13,359 nt of DNA from Chamaesiphon sp. Its GTDB lineage: Bacteria > Cyanobacteriota > Cyanobacteriia > Cyanobacteriales > Chamaesiphonaceae. A model generated the notes under the pieces. That model was given only the letters and a program-made list of their open reading frames with translations, had not been told where the DNA came from and did no database searches. The stretch spans positions 1 to 13,359 of the forward strand of contig JAJAYU010000087.1 in assembly GCA_026786125.1 (NCBI GenBank). The letters are read 5' to 3'. The position numbers and the translations under genes were made by a program. Positions 1 to 9,298 of this stretch are shown here, in pieces (positions within the stretch are counted from its first letter, which is position 1; the number at the start of each line of letters is the position of its first letter).

Positions 1-71
1 CCAAAGCTAAAATTGCCCAACATCTCAAAAAACGTATGATGCCGCGCCGTCCGCCCCACATTCTCGATATT
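1..71 (-). pseudogene. alaS: 5'-truncated alanyl-tRNA synthetase fragment (runs off the window)
   Basis: The minus strand reads [18 protein letters not shown] followed by GNFSFG. This is the highly conserved motif-2 region of alanyl-tRNA synthetase, the class II enzyme that charges tRNA-Ala. In known AlaRS proteins the stretch begins about 70-75 residues from the N-terminus. Here the preceding sequence is the hsdM end plus a short repeat. The AlaRS frame runs back from the match through unrelated codons to a TAG that overlaps the hsdM stop region, with no ATG, GTG or TTG before the conserved block. The gene therefore has lost its start and N-terminal part. What follows outside the window is unknown, so this could be a short scrap or an otherwise long gene. 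Because alaS is essential, an intact copy should exist elsewhere. The assignment is strong; the pseudogene call is inferred from the missing 5' end. Confidence 0.8.
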
Positions 72-81
72 ATATTCGTTC

Positions 82-154
82 GCAAAAGCGTTGTCTCTGG
101 CAAATTGATGACTCTTATTCTAACTCGCCCATCAGCCCCTCAATCTCACCTAAA
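82..154. repeat. Direct repeat copy A: hsdM 3' end plus downstream flank
   Basis: These 73 bp match 4385-4457 in the same orientation with about 6 mismatches by eye, including an identical 27-bp core. The copy covers the last hsdM codons ([12 protein letters not shown] and stop) and about 33 bp beyond, ending close to the alaS fragment. Confidence 0.85.
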
Positions 155-1572
155 GCCGATCGCAAGTAATCCGCAATCGCCGTCGCAATCTCCCCTGGCT
201 CCGTCATCTCATCTTCAGGATCGTTACTGGTATCCCGCAGCCAACTAATGTCAAGATTATCATTTCGATCGGCAATCTGCTCGCGGGTAAAACACCTAAA
301 CCGCCCTTCCTCGCCACCATCGATGCGTGGTGAATTTCCCCACGGATCTGCTCCAAACGCCGCTTCAAACTCGGCAAAATCTGCCAGAGTTAATTGGCGC
401 GTCTTGCCAAAGGTATTCATGTTGGATCGCATATCGTATACCCAGACAGCCTGAGTATTCGCCCGATCTGTTTCGCCGCGAGAGAGAAACAGCACATTGG
501 TTTTCACTCCCTGGGCGTAAAATATCCCCGTGGGCAGGCGTAAAATCGTATGGAGGTTACAAAGTTCCATTAGCTGTTGACGGAGCTTGCGTCCGGTATT
601 ATCCTCGAATAGGACGTTATCTGGTAGGACGATCGCGGCTCTCCCCTTCGGCTTCAGAGCGCGATAGATATGCTCGACAAATGCCAACTGTTTATTGGAG
701 GTATCCGCCGTCACCGAAAAATCACTCCGCGTCGGTTTTCCGCCGCCTTTTTTGGTGCCAAATGGTGGATTTGTCAGTATCACATCGGCTCTGCCCAATG
801 TCTCGCCATCCGGTGATAAACTATCTCCACAACTAACGCCACTTTCAATTCCATGTAAGATTAGATTCATCAAACAAAGGCGATGGGTATCCGGTACGAG
901 TTCCAATCCGGTAAAGGCTTGGTGGTGTTGAAAATGATTTTCGGCTTGGCTTAAAGTGTAGAAATCGTTAGTTTGTTCCCTAATATATTGATCGGCTGCA
1001 ACTAAGAATCCACCCGTACCTGCCGCCGGATCTTGAATTACTTCTCCCGCTTGTGGTTTCACGAGGCGAATAATCGCATCAATCAATGGGCGCGGTGTAA
1101 AATATTGTCCCGCACCAGACTTTTTCTCATCGGCATTTTTGGCGAGTAATCCCTCATAGAGATCGCCTAAACCTTCTTCCCGTGCGGAGAACCAATCAAG
1201 TTTATCGATCGCATCGCTCAAGGATTTCAGATTAGTCGGCTTGCGGAGTTTCGTCTGAGCATCCGTAAAAATTGCCAATACTACCCGATCGATCACTTTC
1301 TCAGGATTGCCCAAATCCAGCAACAACTGACGATAAAAATCTAACTGCAATAAACCTTCTTTAGCATCCAAATCTTGCCAATGATAACCATCAGGTAAAC
1401 GGCTTTCTTTCCCTGTCTCTGCCAACATTTTCAGGAATAATAAATAAGTCAATTCGGTGACATATTCGTTATAAGTAATCCCATCATCTCGCAGAATATT
1501 GCACAGATTCCACAATTTCGCCACGATATCGCGGGTGACATTGCCTTTACCAGTTGAGTTGTCTTTTGCCAC
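115..1572 (-). CDS. hsdM: Type I restriction-modification DNA methyltransferase subunit HsdM
   Basis: This is the modification subunit of a type I R-M complex. Two HsdM with one HsdS methylate adenine in a bipartite target using S-adenosylmethionine, and they join HsdR for restriction. The 485-aa product has the N-terminal helical domain (about residues 10-130), then [12 protein letters not shown] (153-164), the SAM-binding motif DPAAGTGG (181-188) and the catalytic NPPF (268-271) typical of N6-adenine methyltransferases. The length is normal for short HsdM proteins. The start is GTG giving [10 protein letters not shown]; no strong Shine-Dalgarno lies at ideal distance (AAGGAG is about 17 nt upstream). 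It is the last R-M gene of the minus-strand cluster and is separated from hsdS by toxin-antitoxin remnants. Its last 13 codons and about 33 bp downstream are repeated after hsdR. Identification is secure. Confidence 0.95.
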
Positions 1573-1611
1573 AGTTATTCTTAAATATTCTCCTTTACAT
1601 TTGTCCCGTAG

Positions 1612-1640
1612 GGTGTGTTATCGCGCCAGCATAACGCACC
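1612..1640. repeat. Short palindromic dispersed repeat upstream of hsdM
   Basis: GGTGTGTTAT and ATAACGCACC form a 10-bp stem with one G-U pair around the 9-nt loop CGCGCCAGC. The hairpin lies between the 56-aa ORF and hsdM. The motif resembles the GGTGCGTTA-type intergenic repeats I recall from cyanobacterial genomes; copy number cannot be checked here. It has no U-tract on either strand, so it is not a convincing terminator. Confidence 0.5.
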
Positions 1641-1674
1641 ATCATCAAATAATTCACTAGCCAGCAAGGTTCGT

Positions 1675-1845
1675 TCATTTAGCTAATTCAATCAACGCAT
1701 TGCGATATTTTATCATCCCTTTCCGTGCAGCTTCGATTTTGGCGACAAAAGTAGGATCGTATGGTGAAATTTCATAGCCTGATGGCGTTTTCGTAGCGAA
1801 TAAATCGTCTCCATCTTCTATATTCATACTGGCTGCCATTTTCAT
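1675..1845 (-). CDS. Small acidic protein, possible orphan antitoxin (56 aa)
   Basis: An open frame of 56 codons starts MKMAASMNIEDGDD and ends KYRNALIELAK. The central YEISPYDPTFVAKIEAARKG resembles the SPYDP.FV.KI motif I recall from small antitoxins paired with RelE-type toxins, but the similarity is from memory and modest. The N-terminal half is acidic and the C-terminal half basic and helical. The gene begins 34 nt after the truncated PIN toxin and lies upstream of hsdM on the same strand. There is no clear ribosome binding site; internal ATGs at codons 3 and 7 are alternative starts. No partner toxin gene follows it, only the palindromic repeat and hsdM. A real gene is likely, given family resemblance and operon position, but its function is uncertain. 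Confidence 0.5.
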   Translation of the reverse strand: MKMAASMNIEDGDDLFATKTPSGYEISPYDPTFVAKIEAARKGMIKYRNALIELAK

Positions 1846-1879
1846 TTAAGATTATCTACATCGATCGCTTTAAAATCAA

Positions 1880-2035
1880 TTACCATAAAATATTTACTTG
1901 ATAATCATTAAACAGCTTATCTTCCGATCTCAATGTTAATGACTCCGATCGAGCTTGAGCGATGAGTAGTCTATCGAAAAGATCTCGATGGTGTAGGGGC
2001 AAATCTCTCAGAACTAGCAGATGAGGAATTTCAAT
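1880..2035 (-). pseudogene. N-terminally truncated PIN-domain (VapC-like) toxin
   Basis: The frame reads IEIPHLLVLRDLPLHHRD then LFDRLLIAQARSESLTL and ends NDYQVNILW. This is the C-terminal part of a PIN-domain RNase toxin, including the conserved HRD.FDRLLIAQA segment with its acidic residue. The N-terminal portion, roughly 70-75 residues carrying the first catalytic aspartate (LLDTH-type motif), is absent. The upstream antitoxin ends EYMY-stop, and its ATG at 2039-2037 is where such toxins normally begin. After that ATG only one base (T) precedes the toxin remnant, so the joint is also out of frame. A 65-codon open frame continues upstream out of frame through the antitoxin end, but it cannot restore the missing domain. 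I infer a deletion from just after the toxin start codon; the toxin should be inactive. Confidence 0.75.
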
Positions 2036-2255
2036 ACATATACTCAGCAAAATCGCTAAGAGGTTCATTGAAGTCATCAGATATCTCTATCTGTCCGCGC
2101 AGACAACCGAATAAATCTTTACGACTAATCTTCGGCTTGGCTAATAAATCAGGCTGTTGTCGCCATCCAGGAACCAAATGAGCGACAATTTGGAGCCGCT
2201 CTTGAGGATCGAGCCGATCGATATCTGCTAAAACTTGCTCTAGTAAGGGACTCAT
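2031..2255 (-). CDS. VapB-like antitoxin of the second toxin-antitoxin module
   Basis: The 74-aa protein MSPLLEQVLADIDRLDPQER... ends with ISRKDLFGCLRGQIEISDDF and NEPLSDFAEYMY. The C-terminal pattern LFG.L.GQI...DDF.EPL.DF.EYM is typical of antitoxins that precede PIN-domain toxins in cyanobacteria (recalled family resemblance). The N-terminal helix probably mediates DNA binding or dimerisation, and the acidic tail binds the toxin. The chosen start is the ATG preceded by AAAGG; a GTG one codon upstream is possible. It follows hsdS by about 19 nt, so it is probably co-transcribed. Its stop overlaps the position of the toxin start codon, as expected for such modules, but only a C-terminal scrap of the toxin remains. 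The antitoxin appears intact and may still repress the operon. Confidence 0.7.
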   Translation of the reverse strand: MSPLLEQVLADIDRLDPQERLQIVAHLVPGWRQQPDLLAKPKISRKDLFGCLRGQIEISDDFNEPLSDFAEYMY

Positions 2256-2274
2256 CACAAACCTTTGAGATTAT

Positions 2275-3498
2275 CTACTTTGATTTTACCTTTTTTCCTT
2301 TCACCTGTGCCGATCTATCTGCCTGAATTCGCTCTAGCAATACTGCTGCGGGTTCATCATTAGGATCTTGGGGAACTAGTTCGCCGCGAAATGCTTTGGC
2401 GAGGATGGATCGATCAAGTCGATCGAGTAGTTTAATTGCTTGATGATATTCTTTGGCGATGAGATCGATCACTTTAAATAGTTTTTCAATTCGTTTAACT
2501 ATTTCTTCTTGTTCTACTAATGTCGGAAGTGGAATCTGAAAATTTCGTAATCCTCCGAGCGGTATAGTCAATTGTGCTGTCCCCGTTGCCACTTCCAGAG
2601 CTTGATTTTTTATTTCTGTACTTCCTAATATATAAAACAAGTATCTCTCAATAATTATATCTTTGTTTGTTTTTAAGATTGCGATGTGACGCTGAAAAAT
2701 AAATGGCTCATAAGTATCAACAATTACTGGAATACCAATCGAGCCAGTGACTGAAAATAAAATATCACCTTTTCCAGGCTTACGACTTAACGAGAGAGAG
2801 TTAAAATAACTATCTGGCACAAATCTAGTGGCTTTTTCAAGCCTTAGAAATCCATCATTTATCGCAGAAATTGTAATGAATGGTATTCCTTCATTTACTC
2901 TAGGTGGTGCTTGATGATCTCCATCTGTGATAGAAAGACATACTTTTGAAAGAGATACTTCTGTTAAGTCGCCGCTAAAAGCAGTAGAGAGGATGGCTTG
3001 TTTGTATCGATCGAGTAATTTAGGGATACGTTCTAGATCTTGACGGGCGCGGCGGGATCGATCGAGCAAACTATCCAACTTCGCAACTATTCGACGTTGT
3101 TCAGCAAGTGGGGGAAGCGGAATATTTATAGCATAAACATCATTTCGATTAATTCCTGGAATTCCTGTAGATCTATCGAGGGTATTAAGATTTAAGCTTT
3201 TAAGTAAACTAATTAAATATTTGTAGCTTATATGTTGAAAATCATCAATAAAGTATGTAGTATCTATCGGAAAACAAGGAAGTTGTGAAAAGACAACTTC
3301 TCCAATGCTTCCTTTTCTTCCTACTAAAATAGTCGATCCATCAGTCAAAGAGGTATTATGCCATCCGATTTGACCATTGGAACCATAAACAGGGATATCG
3401 CCATGTTGTCTATCTTTTGCTGGCAGACTTTTTCCATACTTTAGTTCAATAATTTTGCCTAAATTAGTCGTCGCCCACCCCTTCGGTAAATCGCTCAT
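2275..3498 (-). CDS. hsdS: Type I restriction-modification specificity subunit HsdS
   Basis: HsdS recognises the bipartite DNA target of the type I complex and binds two HsdM. The 407-aa protein shows two half-repeats: TRD1 (about residues 1-130, beginning SDLPKGWATTNLG), a conserved central spacer (PLPPLAEQRRIVAKLDSLL and following helix to about 185), TRD2 (about 195-335) and a distal spacer (PLPTLVEQEEIVKRIEKLF through LDRLDRSILAKAFRGELVPQ). The start is placed at MSDLPKGW, because AGGGGAA lies just upstream; 13 more codons are open to 3537 but look unrelated. The target-recognition parts are visibly more AT-rich and lack CGATCG, whereas the spacer-coding parts contain it, consistent with exchange of TRDs. 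It lies between two toxin-antitoxin modules. The protein is full length, with no interruption. Target sequence cannot be predicted. Confidence 0.93.
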   Translation of the reverse strand: MSDLPKGWATTNLGKIIELKYGKSLPAKDRQHGDIPVYGSNGQIGWHNTSLTDGSTILVGRKGSIGEVVFSQLPCFPIDTTYFIDDFQHISYKYLISLLKSLNLNTLDRSTGIPGINRNDVYAINIPLPPLAEQRRIVAKLDSLLDRSRRARQDLERIPKLLDRYKQAILSTAFSGDLTEVSLSKVCLSITDGDHQAPPRVNEGIPFITISAINDGFLRLEKATRFVPDSYFNSLSLSRKPGKGDILFSVTGSIGIPVIVDTYEPFIFQRHIAILKTNKDIIIERYLFYILGSTEIKNQALEVATGTAQLTIPLGGLRNFQIPLPTLVEQEEIVKRIEKLFKVIDLIAKEYHQAIKLLDRLDRSILAKAFRGELVPQDPNDEPAAVLLERIQADRSAQVKGKKVKSK

Positions 3499-3537
3499 AA
3501 TTCCCCTAATTCCGCACAGATTTCCAGCATACAGCAT

Positions 3538-3621
3538 CTAACACCATGTACCAGCGTACTTGCTGAGATATGCGATCGACAATATATCTGAAATTAACTC
3601 TTGATCGTTTCGCTTAGACAT
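3538..3621 (-). pseudogene. 27-codon ORF, possible HepT/DUF86 N-terminal remnant
   Basis: Between the broken PIN toxin and hsdS the minus strand has ATG followed by SKRNDQELISDIL, then SIAYLSKYAGTWC and a TAG that directly abuts the extended hsdS frame. AAGGGG lies about 10 nt upstream. The first 14 residues resemble the start of HepT-family (DUF86) HEPN toxins as I remember them (M..R.D..LL.DIL), but the rest does not continue the family. It could be a decayed toxin start or simply a chance ORF. Low certainty. Confidence 0.25.
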
Positions 3622-3635
3622 ACATAATTTGCCCC

Positions 3636-4049
3636 TTAATTCTCCATCTCTAATTCCCAATCTTCAAGCCGTAAGTTATCGATACGGCTAAACTCGCGGG
3701 TATTGTGGGTGACAAGAGTTAGATCGTTAGCTAGTGCAATCGCGGCTATTTGAAGATCGTAAGCTCCAATAGGCGTACCTTTCTTCTCTAACTGAGCGCG
3801 GATACTTCCGAATATAGTTGCCGCAGAATCATCAAATGGTATCGAGATGATGTGAGTCAGAAAGGTCTGTTGAATAGCTAGATTCTTTTCTGGGCTTGCA
3901 CTTTTCATCGATCCATAGTACAACTCCGACTTAACTACCGAACACACGGCAATATCTTGAATTGGAACAGATTTAAGTTTAAATCATAAACTTAAATTTC
4001 TCCCTTTTAGATAGACGATACAAACATTAGTATCTAGTAAAAATCTCAT
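3636..4049 (-). pseudogene. vapC: VapC-family PIN-domain toxin interrupted by one in-frame TGA
   Basis: Reading from the ATG at 4049 gives MRFLLDTNVCIVYLKGRNLSL, a TGA at 3986-3984 (codon 22), then, in the same frame, FKLKSVPIQDIAVCSVVKSE and onward to DLTLVTHNTREFSRIDNLRL and EDWELEMEN. In total there are 137 codons plus stop, the usual VapC length. VapC toxins are Mg-dependent RNases, often cutting tRNA. The acidic positions are all visible: LLDTN, KSELYYG and GAYDLQIAA. Only the nonsense codon separates the halves; no frameshift is needed. The ATG overlaps the antitoxin stop in ATGA, as in standard vapBC operons. The stop sits in the loop of a perfect 11-bp inverted repeat. Translation restarting downstream would lose the first catalytic aspartate. 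I call it a pseudogene; TGA readthrough is a less likely alternative. Confidence 0.85.
3971..3997. repeat. Perfect 11-bp inverted repeat centred on the vapC nonsense codon
   Basis: ATTTAAGTTTA and TAAACTTAAAT are exact reverse complements separated by 5 nt (AATCA on the plus strand), and the TGA stop of the interrupted toxin lies in that loop. It lies wholly inside the coding region and has no U-tract, so a terminator role is unlikely. Confidence 0.8.
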
Positions 4050-4303
4050 ATTAGTGGTTCTCGCTCTGATTGTTCTCCTTGTGGGTGACGAATGAATGTT
4101 TCATCTTGAATAGAGCCACAAAATTTTGCTAACGGATGATCTTCATCTGCGATTGGTTGTTCTACTGAAGACCGAACATTTTGAAGATTAGGCTGCAATG
4201 ATTCAATTAATATTTTAACTAGCCCCCATCGATCGTTAATCGGTAGCTGTGTAACTAGTTGTTGCAATTGTGGGATTGTTAAATTGACATTTGTTTCTAT
4301 CAT
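4046..4303 (-). CDS. VapB-like antitoxin of the first toxin-antitoxin module
   Basis: The 85-aa product begins MIETNVNLTIPQLQQLVTQL and includes PINDRWGLVKILIESLQ, then an acidic, hydrophilic tail. This fits small cyanobacterial antitoxins with an N-terminal helical repressor-like part and a C-terminal toxin-binding tail; the exact family is uncertain. The frame is open 27 codons further upstream to 4384, but that part derives from repeat-like sequence. The ATG at 4303 has AGGAG 7 nt upstream and is preferred. Its TGA overlaps the ATG of the following PIN toxin as ATGA, indicating translational coupling. The toxin is interrupted by a stop codon, so this is an intact antitoxin without a working partner. 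It lies between hsdR and hsdS on their strand. Confidence 0.75.
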   Translation of the reverse strand: MIETNVNLTIPQLQQLVTQLPINDRWGLVKILIESLQPNLQNVRSSVEQPIADEDHPLAKFCGSIQDETFIRHPQGEQSEREPLI

Positions 4304-4310
4304 GATGTTA

Positions 4311-4315
4311 CTCCT
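4311..4315 (-). promoter_or_regulatory. Ribosome binding site deciding the VapB-like start
   Basis: AGGAG on the minus strand, 7 nt before the ATG at 4303. It selects the 85-aa start over the longer 112-codon open frame. Confidence 0.65.
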
Positions 4316-4320
4316 GAATC

Positions 4321-4384
4321 GTTCATCGTCATTAGATTTGTTCGCGTAGGGTTTGCCTAATGCCAAAAGCAAGGCTACACCCAA
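4321..4384. repeat. Repeat-like intergenic tract next to the hsdM-end copy
   Basis: The tract between the antitoxin start and direct repeat B contains sub-motifs such as TTCGCGTAGGGTTTGCC and TGCCAAAAGCAAGGC that look like the small dispersed repeats of heterocystous and related cyanobacteria. This is pattern memory only; copy number cannot be tested here. Confidence 0.3.
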
Positions 4385-4457
4385 GCAAAAGCGTTGTCTT
4401 TGGCAAATCGATTACTCTTATTCTAACTCGCCCATCAGCCTCTCAACCTCGCCTAAA
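4385..4457. repeat. Direct repeat copy B: hsdM 3' end after hsdR
   Basis: Same-orientation match to 82-154 (about 67 of 73 positions by eye). Differences within the coding part include both silent and replacement changes (I to V, G to R), so the copy has diverged. Confidence 0.85.
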
Positions 4458-4462
4458 CTCAT
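4418..4462 (-). pseudogene. hsdM C-terminal remnant (14 codons)
   Basis: The minus strand reads MSLGEVERLMGELE-stop, matching the hsdM C-terminus [16 protein letters not shown] almost exactly. It begins 32 nt after the hsdR stop. The rest of hsdM is absent here. It is best read as a recombination scar of a second hsdM copy rather than a gene. Confidence 0.75.
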
Positions 4463-4494
4463 TGGAGCAGCATCCCGGAACGGGAATTGCCCAA

Positions 4495-7494
4495 TTAAGC
4501 TCTCTCCCGCCACAATTCCTCTTGAATATCCCCCAAAATCGCTTCTAACTGTCCATTAAATACCTTATCTAGTCTTTTAAACCCACCATCAGCTTGAAAG
4601 GGTTCCTGGTCGATTGCGGCTTGATCGACGATGATTTCACGAGCTACTTGAAGACCGATCTTTTGCAACCATTGCTGTTGTGGATATGTCCAATTCTGTT
4701 TGGCTAAAATCCGGCGAATTGCCTTCTTCACCCGCTCATCATAAGGGATCAGCGCATCACCCAGCGCAGCCTGACGGATGAAGCCGATAATTGACGCAGC
4801 CATGTCTTCATTTCTGGTATCTCGCCACGCTTGTTGTAAAGCTGTATCCGAGTATCCCAACTTATCCAACTCTAGCCGCAATTCCCGCAACTGAGCGCGA
4901 GTCAATTCGCGAGGACGTTGTAAGACTACGACGAGGGCGGCAATTTGATTCATATTATCCCGAACGTAGGCAGTAAAACTATCGAGAAAATCATCAGGTT
5001 TTTGTCCTAAACCATAGCCGCGCGTCACTGATATTACCTCATCGGGATGATGGGAAATCGGCAATAATCGCGCTCCATTTCCATCGGGATTCCAGTCTAA
5101 TATTTGCCCTAATTGTGGTCGATCTCGCACCCAATTCGCTGTCTCAGTCAGGGGTGCCGATTTGAAGCGTTGTAATGTCAGCTCGACAGTTTCCCCACTT
5201 TCAGACTCATAACTATCTTGGGCTAGTTGGGGAATATTTCGCATTTTACGCCGCAATTTAACTAAAATTTGGTCGCGAATTACTTGTCGATTTTCGTCAG
5301 TGGTTACTTGACTAAATTCAGCGAATAGCTGTTCTAAATCAATTTTTGGATTGACAATTATAGGTTTCATTTCTGAGACGGTTTGCATTTTGGCATACAC
5401 ATCGACAGCATCGAAAATTCTAAATGTCTCCTTCCCAATCTCGTCACATTGACGAGTTGCTCGACCGAGCATTTGTTCGTACAAGATGCGACTATTTACC
5501 CTTCTCAAGAATACCAGATTAGTGATTTTGGGAATATCAATTCCAGTGGTTAATAAATCTACCGTCACAGCAACGTTTGGCAATCTATCGTTACGATACT
5601 CTTTAATTAGTTTCCCAACTTGATCGATCAATCCTGTCAGTTTCTTCACCGCTCCATCTTCGATCTCACCATAAAATTTCTCAAATGCGGCTTTTAGTTC
5701 ATCGACGATAATATCCGCATGGGCATCAGTAGCCGCGAAAATTAATGTTTTCCCTGGTAAATTGGGGTCGATATAAATGGCTAGCTCATTCGCGATTGCC
5801 CGATTGAAAGGTACCGTAATCACCTGCTTATTAAACTTATCGACATCAAAATGCAGATCGTCAGGCGCATTAGTCAGATCGACAGTTCCAGTCACCGCAT
5901 CATAGACTTCCATCTCCTCTTGTGCCTGAAAATCAATTCCCGACCGACTTAATTCTGTACCGATCTGAAATGGTGGTTCGTGGTCGATTAAAAAGCCATC
6001 GATGACTGCTTCCCGATAGGAGTATTTATAAATCGGTTCGCCGAAAATTTCTTTGGTATGTAAAGCTGGAGTAGCCGTTAAACCAATCTTTACCGCATCG
6101 AAATGTTCTAATACTCGCCGATATTTAGAAATATAGTCATCCTGCGATCGAAAGCTCAATTCCGCATCCGACATTTCTCGATCGAGTAAATACCCCCGAT
6201 GGCACTCATCAATAATAATTAGATCGTATTGGTCTACCGTCGGCACATCCCCAGGTTCTTTAGCATATAATACCCGCTTCACCAATCCTTGAATCGTACA
6301 AATATGTACCTTCGTTTCCGATTCTGGTTCGATTTCCTTCAACCCTTGCAATCCAAAGATATCCGCAAAAGTCTTGCTCGAAACAACTTTAGTCGTCTTA
6401 AATTCATCCCCTGTCTGGGTACCCAACGCACTGCGATCGACCACAAAACATACCCGCCGAAACCGTTTCGCCGTCAATAACCGATACAATAATGCGATCG
6501 CCAGTTTAGTTTTACCCGTCCCCGTTGCCATCGCCACCAACATTGATCGGCGATCGCTCTCTAAGGCAGCCTCAATTGCTTTGATCGCATTTTGCTGATA
6601 ATAACGCAGTGGAAAGCCAAAGTTGAAAGATTGCGCCTTCAGAGCCGTATGAGCATCCTTTGCGTCGATCTTCAGTTGTCCGATTAGCCCATCGGGTGTC
6701 GGAAATCCTGTCAGAGCGCGGCGCAAATTAGTCGCCAACCGAACATCCCGAAACCAGATCCCACTCTCAGTTTCAATCTGTTTGAGATAAGGTCGTCCAT
6801 TGGTGGCAAATACAAACGGTACGCCATATTTACCCCAACTCTCCCCCGCAAATTGTAACCCCTTCGCGTATCTTTCTGCCTGATCGATCGCGCCTGACAC
6901 ATTCTTCCTGCGCCGTTTTGCTTCAACCACGCCGATACAAAAAGTCCCGACAAATAAAGCATAATCAGCAATACCATCTTGAGTAGGATACTCCGCGATC
7001 GCAATATTTCGTCCCTTCACTCCTCTTGTACCCGACTGATACTGTAGACTCTGAGTATCCGCTTCCCAGCCACAATCCCGCAACTGTCGATCGATTATCG
7101 CTCTTGTTTGCGCCTCATCTAAATCTAACTTCTGTGCCGCATCCGCCGCCCGTTGGAGAATACTCGTCGTTTGATAACTAGAAAACTTAGGTGTATTTGC
7201 CTGAAGTGTCGCTAATTGCTGTGTGAGAGTCGCAATCGAACTCTCTGCATCTAACGCCAACTGCTCCCAAACTAATCGCTCCTCATCGGCTATTTTTGCC
7301 TGCGCTTCAATATCTACTCTCGCTTGCGCTTGCGCTTCCACTTCGGCTTGAGTTTGGGCGATCGTCAGTTGGAGACGGGCTAATTCTGCGGTACGATTAT
7401 TCCGATCTTGATCGAAAAACCGCTCCGCTAATTGCCCCAACCTCACTAATTGCGGCTCGTGGGATGCTAAAAACTCAAAATTGCTAACTTGCAT
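4495..7494 (-). CDS. hsdR: Type I restriction endonuclease/translocase subunit HsdR
   Basis: HsdR is the ATP-driven motor and nuclease of the type I R-M complex; it pulls in unmethylated DNA and cuts at a distance. The 999-aa protein has an N-terminal Gln/Ala/Glu-rich coiled coil (about 30-100), a PD-(D/E)xK nuclease with D177 (GIADYAL) and E191-A-K193 (VVEAKRR), then superfamily 2 helicase motifs: Walker A TGTGKT (324-329), DECH (429-432), TATP (473-476) and QMLGRATRQ (about 674-682). The C-terminal helical region ends LGDIQEELWRERA. No interruption is seen. ATG at 7494 is the first usable start; no clear Shine-Dalgarno precedes it. It is the first gene of the minus-strand R-M cluster, about 85 nt after the psbA-type terminator, so it needs its own promoter. 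I could not identify a convincing one. Confidence 0.95.
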   Translation of the reverse strand: MQVSNFEFLASHEPQLVRLGQLAERFFDQDRNNRTAELARLQLTIAQTQAEVEAQAQARVDIEAQAKIADEERLVWEQLALDAESSIATLTQQLATLQANTPKFSSYQTTSILQRAADAAQKLDLDEAQTRAIIDRQLRDCGWEADTQSLQYQSGTRGVKGRNIAIAEYPTQDGIADYALFVGTFCIGVVEAKRRRKNVSGAIDQAERYAKGLQFAGESWGKYGVPFVFATNGRPYLKQIETESGIWFRDVRLATNLRRALTGFPTPDGLIGQLKIDAKDAHTALKAQSFNFGFPLRYYQQNAIKAIEAALESDRRSMLVAMATGTGKTKLAIALLYRLLTAKRFRRVCFVVDRSALGTQTGDEFKTTKVVSSKTFADIFGLQGLKEIEPESETKVHICTIQGLVKRVLYAKEPGDVPTVDQYDLIIIDECHRGYLLDREMSDAELSFRSQDDYISKYRRVLEHFDAVKIGLTATPALHTKEIFGEPIYKYSYREAVIDGFLIDHEPPFQIGTELSRSGIDFQAQEEMEVYDAVTGTVDLTNAPDDLHFDVDKFNKQVITVPFNRAIANELAIYIDPNLPGKTLIFAATDAHADIIVDELKAAFEKFYGEIEDGAVKKLTGLIDQVGKLIKEYRNDRLPNVAVTVDLLTTGIDIPKITNLVFLRRVNSRILYEQMLGRATRQCDEIGKETFRIFDAVDVYAKMQTVSEMKPIIVNPKIDLEQLFAEFSQVTTDENRQVIRDQILVKLRRKMRNIPQLAQDSYESESGETVELTLQRFKSAPLTETANWVRDRPQLGQILDWNPDGNGARLLPISHHPDEVISVTRGYGLGQKPDDFLDSFTAYVRDNMNQIAALVVVLQRPRELTRAQLRELRLELDKLGYSDTALQQAWRDTRNEDMAASIIGFIRQAALGDALIPYDERVKKAIRRILAKQNWTYPQQQWLQKIGLQVAREIIVDQAAIDQEPFQADGGFKRLDKVFNGQLEAILGDIQEELWRERA

Positions 7495-7576
7495 CTATGG
7501 CCACCATCGGCGATCTAATACACATATTATGCCCACCAGAATCCGCAAACATTAAATCTTGGCGGTTAATAACAAA

Positions 7577-7609
7577 ACAAAACCCCCTCACGATGTGAGG
7601 GGGTTTTGT
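7577..7609 (-). terminator. Rho-independent terminator behind the psbA remnant
   Basis: A 15-bp perfect stem (ACAAAACCCCCTCAC pairing with GTGAGGGGGTTTTGT) has a 3-nt loop. On the minus strand it is followed by TTTTGTTATT. It lies 22 nt after the psbA remnant stop, the expected place for a psbA terminator, and isolates hsdR from upstream transcription. Confidence 0.9.
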
Positions 7610-7631
7610 CTATCTCGAAATCAAATCGGAA

Positions 7632-7772
7632 TTAACCGTTGATGGAAGGAGCAGTCAAAGCAACAGGAGTAGCTTCACCAGCAGCTAGATCGAGAGGGAA
7701 GTTGTGAGCGTTGCGCTCGTGCATTGCGGAGAACAATGAACCACCGAATACACCAGCTACTCCCAACATGTG
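7632..7772 (-). pseudogene. psbA: psbA (photosystem II D1) remnant with 5' truncation and internal deletion
   Basis: The minus strand encodes [18 protein letters not shown] joined directly to [18 protein letters not shown] and [14 protein letters not shown]. In D1 numbering the first part is His198 to His215 and the second is Glu333 to Gly360 of a normal 360-aa cyanobacterial protein. About 117 codons are missing, and the joint lies at ATGCAC (7724-7719), which encodes Met-His at both 214-215 and 331-332. Everything before His198 is gone; an in-frame TAG lies two codons upstream. The coding frame from Met199 could make a 45-residue peptide, but no ribosome binding site is apparent. The mature C-terminus and terminator are preserved. 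D1 is the photosystem II core protein, so full psbA copies must be elsewhere. Identification is certain; loss of function follows from the missing helices. Confidence 0.95.
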
Positions 7773-7818
7773 GAGCTAACTCTATTGTTAACGTTTGTAA
7801 AGTTTTCTCATGTTTGTT

Positions 7819-7841
7819 AATCTGATGAGTTTCATCAGGTT
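7819..7841. repeat. Small hairpin between the DHH gene and psbA remnant
   Basis: CTGATGA and TCATCAG are exact complements around a 3-nt loop; the stem extends to 10 bp with one G-U pair. It lies 88 nt beyond the stop of the DHH gene. It lacks a U-tract, so a terminator role is weak. The rest of 7773-7928 shows no gene. Confidence 0.35.
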
Positions 7842-7928
7842 TACTTATGAGTTGTCGCTTGTCCTGGCTGGGTATGATTCTTGGTGAGATGATTGGGGAT
7901 CAAAACTTGACTACAACTATCAACCAAC

Positions 7929-9218
7929 TTAATAGCTATCAGTGGGGTTGACCAATTTCAACAACTTCTGCTTGATTTGATTATCAAACACTTCCCACTT
8001 CATCTTGGAAAATTCAGAGTTGTCATTGAAGCCACACAAGAACCCGACGGGAATCTCAAATCCGCCAGCGGTGAATCTACCACCACCAAAGAAACGACCT
8101 TCGCTATTTTTGCCAAATGCTTCTTTGATAAACTCATCCGGATCGAGGGTTAATTTGGACGTGCGGAGGGAGCCAATCACTAATTCCACTTCATCATCCT
8201 CATCGCGGACAATGCCATATACCATCGCCGTATGGACGTTCTCCTCTGTTACCAGGAAATCTGCCGCTTGGGGAATTGCATCGCGATCTTCATAGCGGAG
8301 ATAGCCGACACCTGCGATCGAGAAGTTATTTTGAACTACTCTATTAGTTAGGGATCTTTGAATCACTTCCATCACCCGTTTCGATCGATATACCTGTAAG
8401 ATAGCATTGAGCAATTGGGCATCATAAAAGCGACTGAGATATCCCGCCGCCAAAAAGTCTTCTTCTTGTGCCTGCATCAAGCGATTGGTATCGGAGCGTA
8501 AGCCGTGCATCAATGCCGTGGCACATTTGACATGTTCGGCAACACTGCTATCTAGTTTCAGTAGTCCTGCTTGGAGGTACTGGGTCAGAATTGTGGCAGT
8601 AGCACGAGTCGAAGGCCGAATATCGACAAATTCGGCATTGAGATCTTCTTGCAGACTATGGTGATCGATAATTACGGTAATCGGAATTTCCGCTTGTCTG
8701 ATGATATCTAATAGCTGACAGGTGGTGCCTTGATTATCAATCAGCACACAGCCTTGATAAGTAGCTAAATCTTTTTCTTTGAGACTCGCGCTAGAAATCT
8801 TTTTGGTTGGTAATCCAGTTAATTTAACTAGGGCAATATTTTCTTGGTGACTGAGGGCACCAGCATAGACAAGATCGCAAGTGATATTGTATTGTTTGGC
8901 GATCAGTTGGTATGCCCAAGCTCCAGATAGCGCGTCAGGATCGGGAAAGTCTTGTAATAGAACAATTTGGCGTTCACCCCGATGCCGTTCTAATGTTGCC
9001 TTGAGTGCAGCTACGCGAATATCCTCGGAAGGTAAATCGTAGCGATGCTCTGGAGATACATGTATAGAGGTCGCTTTACTATGGTCGCGATCCAATCTAT
9101 CTTCTGGATGTTCGACATCGGAATCTATCTGCTGTGTCATTTCGAGCAGTCCACGCATAGAATTTGTATCCATGTTTGAAGCTTGACCATTGAGAGGCTT
9201 AATCAACTTTGAAGACAT
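7929..9218 (-). CDS. DHH/DHHA1 phosphoesterase (NrnA/RecJ superfamily)
   Basis: A DHH-family protein, probably acting on short oligonucleotides, nucleotide phosphates or cyclic dinucleotides; the substrate cannot be fixed from sequence. From the ATG chosen (429 aa) the manganese-binding motifs are QDFPDPDAL (D90, D93, D95), LIDNQG (D161) and the signature DHH (185-187). The C-terminal DHHA1 part has FFGGGRFTAGGFEIP, with Arg where many family members have GGGH. The sequence matches from memory the conserved cyanobacterial proteins annotated as bifunctional oligoribonuclease/PAP phosphatase. The first ~75 residues are variable. A GTG at 9263 would add 15 codons; the ATG at 9218 or a later ATG at 9173 are alternatives, as no ribosome binding site decides. 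A candidate promoter lies 74 nt or so upstream. The gene is monocistronic-looking. Confidence 0.85.
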   Translation of the reverse strand: MSSKLIKPLNGQASNMDTNSMRGLLEMTQQIDSDVEHPEDRLDRDHSKATSIHVSPEHRYDLPSEDIRVAALKATLERHRGERQIVLLQDFPDPDALSGAWAYQLIAKQYNITCDLVYAGALSHQENIALVKLTGLPTKKISSASLKEKDLATYQGCVLIDNQGTTCQLLDIIRQAEIPITVIIDHHSLQEDLNAEFVDIRPSTRATATILTQYLQAGLLKLDSSVAEHVKCATALMHGLRSDTNRLMQAQEEDFLAAGYLSRFYDAQLLNAILQVYRSKRVMEVIQRSLTNRVVQNNFSIAGVGYLRYEDRDAIPQAADFLVTEENVHTAMVYGIVRDEDDEVELVIGSLRTSKLTLDPDEFIKEAFGKNSEGRFFGGGRFTAGGFEIPVGFLCGFNDNSEFSKMKWEVFDNQIKQKLLKLVNPTDSY

Positions 9219-9298
9219 GTATATATCACGCAAGGTAGTGCAGAAGACGGGAAGCTCTAGCACTCCAGTGTTGCGAGGAACGACGATCTCCCGTGGGT

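Follow-up and report, generated by a model that had tools for sequence, protein, structure and literature searches.

Large internal losses of psbA have been described before. In barley chloroplast mutator seedlings a deletion of 620 bp (nt 217-836) is attributed, in the accessible part of the report, to illegitimate recombination (PMC12429641). A break of another type is found in phage S-PM2, where the end of psbA exon 1 adjoins the gene for the endonuclease F-CphI, according to the part of that source available (PMC6083498). In cyanobacteria, multi-copy psbA genes are reported, in the excerpt available, to be under concerted evolution (PMC6053082).

Here we describe a psbA remnant from Chamaesiphon sp., found in a stretch of 13,359 nt which is referred to below as the window. 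Like the barley case, it is characterized by a large internal psbA loss flanked by short direct repeats. The barley deletion differs, by its accessible account, in being from a plastid, in shifting the frame, in having imperfect repeats of 10 and 17 bp and in coming from living plants (PMC12429641). The psbA break caused by the S-PM2 intron with F-CphI is only about 6 nt away from the right joint of the remnant, but that intron is an insertion and, as far as the available text goes, involves no loss of sequence (PMC6083498). At the protein level, both retained coding pieces are identical to intact D1 from G006 C119 (a copy in the sister genome G006) and from G007_4376. With other cyanobacterial psbA copies the remnant shares the terminator and the promoter region, but it lacks the -10 box and is unable to make D1. 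The papers listed in literature searches include no account of this remnant.

The retained pieces and the two joints

The assembly contains the psbA fragment in minus-strand orientation (window 7772-7632); it consists of 46 codons and a stop codon. A sequence-only reading had given the same coordinates, while the strand had to be corrected to minus; the open 46-codon frame and the intact terminator which it had described were both found. By BLAST comparison to 60 relatives, the region 7570-7930 contains three psbA-like pieces rather than two, all in the correct order and on one strand. Direct reading of the sequence gives the pieces in their order, both joints and the intact terminator, together with their neighbours:

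7929..9263, minus strand: DHH-family gene, the upstream neighbour; psbA lies beyond the same gene in G006
7776..7849, minus strand: psbA promoter-region segment with a -35-like TTTACA at 7801-7796, ending after TTAG in the -10 hexamer; 86% identity over 74 bp to the region upstream of psbA on contig C357 of the same genome
7775..7775, minus strand: deletion 1 joint, with a loss of 648 bp; a single C (minus strand) belongs to neither side, by comparison to the C357 leader and to codons 196-199 of relatives
7718..7774, minus strand: inner psbA piece, codons 198-215 and a few flanking bases
7718..7725, minus strand: deletion 2 joint, with a loss of 351 bp, AATGCACG
7632..7724, minus strand: psbA codons 331-360 and stop, by sequence comparison
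7632..7769, minus strand: open frame of 45 aa starting at the ATG of Met199 and closed by the psbA stop
7575..7611, minus strand: psbA terminator hairpin with a 17-pair stem (shuffled sequences average 0.4 such sites)
115..7494, minus strand: type I restriction cluster, downstream, with hsdR (4495-7494), hsdS (2275-3537), hsdM (115-1572) and PIN-domain toxin-like genes

The first 18 residues of the remnant correspond to D1 His198-His215 and the others to Glu333-Gly360, with the Met-His at the joint common to both. Codons 198-215 are thus fused in frame to codons 332-360, which are followed by the stop codon and the terminator. As codons 1-197 and 216-331 are missing, a full-length D1 is not possible. 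Inspection by eye revealed no ribosome-binding sequence for the 45-aa frame.

The loss of 117 codons (351 bp), already noticed from the sequence alone, was confirmed by translation and by comparison to seven intact Chamaesiphon psbA genes, all of which have a spacing of 351 bp between Met214 and Met331. A direct repeat is present at both deletion ends in all seven genes, while the remnant has a single copy at its joint. The repeat is 8 bp long (AATGCACG) in four of the genes and 7 bp long (ATGCACG) in the other three, so that the microhomology of 6 bp reported earlier, while correctly recognized as shared, had been slightly under-called. In three of the seven intact genes we estimated how frequently random break pairs have at least 7 bp in common, and this was the case for 0.09-0.13% of pairs overall and for 0.16-0.31% when only in-frame pairs are counted. 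The repeat is therefore unlikely to be a bystander, and the earlier description of a slippage or end-joining footprint is supported in that the deletion occurred at a short direct repeat. In-frame direct repeats of at least 7 bp, spaced by at least 50 bp, number 40-54 in each of the same three genes, and the Met214/Met331 pair is thus one of many.

Because a promoter-region segment is retained at 7776-7849, a second deletion must be assigned, which had previously been overlooked. It removed the remaining promoter, the leader and codons 1-197, a total of 648 bp. The intact promoter of C357 reads TTTACA-17-TAGATT, with TTTACA being located 85 nt upstream of the start codon. The remnant is identical to C357 over 26 nt, from TTTACA through TTAG, and continues with one extra C and with TCCACATG of codons 197-199. 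The -10 hexamer is cut by this deletion and reads TAGCTC instead of TAGATT. No clear microhomology was detected at this joint, unlike at that of deletion 2. A promoter scan identified one site in intact C357 (0.6 in shuffled sequences) and none in the remnant (0.8 in shuffled sequences), which is weak evidence because both values are close to the shuffle expectation.

The locus and the origin of its pieces

On contig C181 of G006, the genes after the DHH gene (96% identity) encode an AAA-ATPase and a DUF2201 protein, and beyond them come the promoter, leader and start of a psbA gene, at which the contig ends. The AAA-ATPase gene has only weak matches in the genome carrying the remnant. Among named records, the closest match to the DHH gene is from a Chamaesiphon metagenome genome (95% identity). 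In the stretches read from five other genomes of the genus, psbA was not found close to the DHH gene (for G004, these extend only about 1 kb beyond the gene).

On the other side, the restriction cluster starts about 80 bp beyond the psbA terminator. PIN-domain toxin-like genes are encoded between its hsd genes, as is a small DUF2281-like gene, all on the minus strand at window 1880-4384. At the end of the cluster, hsdM is directly adjoined by codons 74-97 of alaS (window 1-74). The first 73 bases of the window are 98.6% identical to alaS on G006 C128, a contig opening with the 3′ end of a psbA gene, with alaS following after about 1 kb. As the psbA 5′ end is found beyond the DHH gene in G006 and as alaS occurs at the left end of the contig, we conclude that this locus held psbA before. 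By sequence comparison, the contig appears to represent the same locus as in G006, with a type I restriction cluster lying between the psbA terminator and alaS. The left end itself is doubtful because the first 73 codons of alaS are missing and no other alaS was found (one match in a genome which is 77% complete). This odd joint may reflect an assembly error or a second alaS copy.

The assembly consists of 415 contigs. A Pfam search of the genome detected one psbA fragment, the first 130 codons at the edge of C357, and one psbD. The comparison to psbA copies of the same genome, which had been suggested earlier, could thus be made in part, the sole other piece found being this 5′ fragment ending at codon 130. 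At another site, on C326 (contig positions ca. 13392-13504), 113 unrelated bases separate the two sequences that flank psbA on G006 C187. The gene downstream of this site shares 92% identity with the corresponding neighbour of G006 C187 psbA, and psbA of G007 adjoins the same neighbour. Judged by this comparison, psbA is absent from the C326 site in the assembly without having left a remnant, while two relatives (G006 and G007) have it there.

The coding pieces are closest to the HIT-linked copy on G006 C119, with differences in 2 of 54 bases (inner piece) and 2 of 93 bases (3′ piece), compared to 7 of 54 and 13 of 93 for G006 C187. There is no amino acid difference to C119 in the 46 codons, and thus nothing shows long decay. 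Unlike the 3′ coding piece, the promoter segment is similar to the other psbA type, as is the short loop of the terminator (judged by eye). However, C357, which has the same promoter type as the remnant, is 93.3% identical to C119, 93.6% to G004 C125 and 87.2% to C187 over its first 390 nt. As C357 combines this promoter type with C119-like coding sequence, the mix is explained by ordinary homogenisation of psbA copies. This fits concerted evolution as published in the portion available (PMC6053082), and no special chimera is needed. The sequence-only reading had considered the remnant to be a fossil of a psbA copy left by recombination among paralogues; the fossil stands, while recombination among paralogues is not required for the mix.

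The same joint in other sequences and alternative explanations

An identical Met214/Met331 joint, with 117 codons missing, occurs in P0002, a JGI metagenome protein of 61 aa which derives from a different psbA. It is 84% identical to the remnant over 45 aa and keeps 15 residues before His198. It is known here as a protein only (2 members, 3 contigs, the longest with 4184 bp). When the 45-aa frame was used as query, 938 matches were obtained and, among the 120 listed, the joint was found in the window's own sequence and in P0002. Because this query contained the joint, the search favours it and a frequency cannot be derived. With a query of 243 aa, scored on residues 184-243, the joint was found in none of the 120 matches listed of 3077, and with P0002 as query no further case was found among the 120 listed of 182. 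The pattern F-(S/T/C)-A-M-H-E-R-N-A-H occurs in one of 388 genomes of the class, which is the remnant's own. It was found neither in the set genome_contigs (from which the own genome was perhaps left out) nor in viral_contigs, and it would miss the form in P0002, which has V for A. A shorter pattern hit two viral stretches, which were rejected as they are short phage proteins with SFWAMHERN and not psbA. Plasmids yielded 12 records with psbA-like pieces, none covering 80% of the query. Among metagenome psbA proteins, P0205 and P0210 are fusions with other joints and P0276 has another internal loss, which suggests that broken psbA copies are not rare.

We consider it unlikely that the assembler stitched pieces of intact psbA at short overlaps or that reads were chimeric. 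The assembly is fragmented and of metagenome type, psbA is multi-copy, and contig edges interrupt psbA, or lie close to it, in C357 as well as in G006 C181 and C41; the odd junction with alaS on the left of the contig points in the same direction. However, a single short read would span both joints, which are separated by only about 50 bp, and random stitching would hardly leave an inner piece of 54 bp. Assemblers usually need a word length longer than an overlap of 8 bp. The same joint was also obtained from another source (P0002), even though a shared artefact is possible.

As P0002 has the identical joint in another psbA, deletion 2 may have occurred more than once. It is very doubtful, however, that the Met214-His215/Met331-His332 repeat is a recurrent psbA deletion site with independent losses here and in P0002, perhaps owing to a position of both ends at or close to targets of introns and homing endonucleases, where intron- or phage-borne nucleases would prune spare copies.

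Even less probable is an origin of deletion 2 from a double-strand cut that occurred at a psbA intron or homing-endonuclease target and was mended by microhomology. The end of the left repeat coincides with nt 645 of psbA, which in the accessible part of the source is a group IA1 intron site in Oedogonium plastid psbA (PMC2442088), but closeness to such a site is not rare because the same text gives ten for Oedogonium psbA alone. The right repeat stops 6 nt short of the end of S-PM2 psbA exon 1, which we place at about codon 334 (nt 1002) from the available part of PMC6083498; a cut at nt 1002 falls outside the deleted stretch. At least nine proteins among 357 matches listed leave psbA for other sequence right after Met214-His215, and the in-frame loss in P0276 starts directly after His215, but the queries behind these protein lists ended at His215, so that breaks at this position are favoured. 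No intron was seen in the intact psbA genes of the genus that were read, and a scan of viral contigs found no intron form at codon 215.

There is hardly any reason to believe that the remnant is a domesticated element with a functional short transcript or 45-aa D1 tail peptide. The frame is open without any amino acid change and the -35 element and the terminator are kept, but the -10 hexamer is broken with no promoter found by the scan, the window has no Rfam match at gathering thresholds (a small RNA was rejected on this basis), and the exact joint is restricted to the remnant's own among the 388 class genomes.

Probable loss of a spare psbA copy

We thus regard it as likely that one of several Chamaesiphon psbA copies, located beyond the DHH gene as in G006, has left this sequence as a non-functional remnant shaped by two internal deletions. 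The absence of psbA from the C326 site is in keeping with this view. The repeat of 7-8 bp would have given rise to deletion 2 through replication slippage or single-strand annealing, while deletion 1, which took part of the -10 box, the leader and codons 1-197, would have been joined without clear homology. The copy may have been dispensable, with other psbA copies making the same protein. Judged from the broken -10 box and the consensus scan, the remnant is presumably no longer usefully expressed. By itself it probably does nothing, and it is probably a well-preserved, ordinary dead psbA copy. Chamaesiphon minutus is said to lack recN in the available part of PMC5101192. Loss of recN was rejected as a cause of the deletions, as 6 of 9 genomes of the genus, including the remnant's own, have a recN above the cut-off. 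In G007, recN is apparently split by about 1.4 kb (C1:2879527-2882670).

The remnant illustrates how surplus psbA is lost from a cyanobacterium that has several copies, and it represents a clean case of short-repeat deletion in a photosynthesis gene that is among the most conserved. The joint in P0002 is the part most worth following and, if it arose independently, would indicate a fragile site in psbA.
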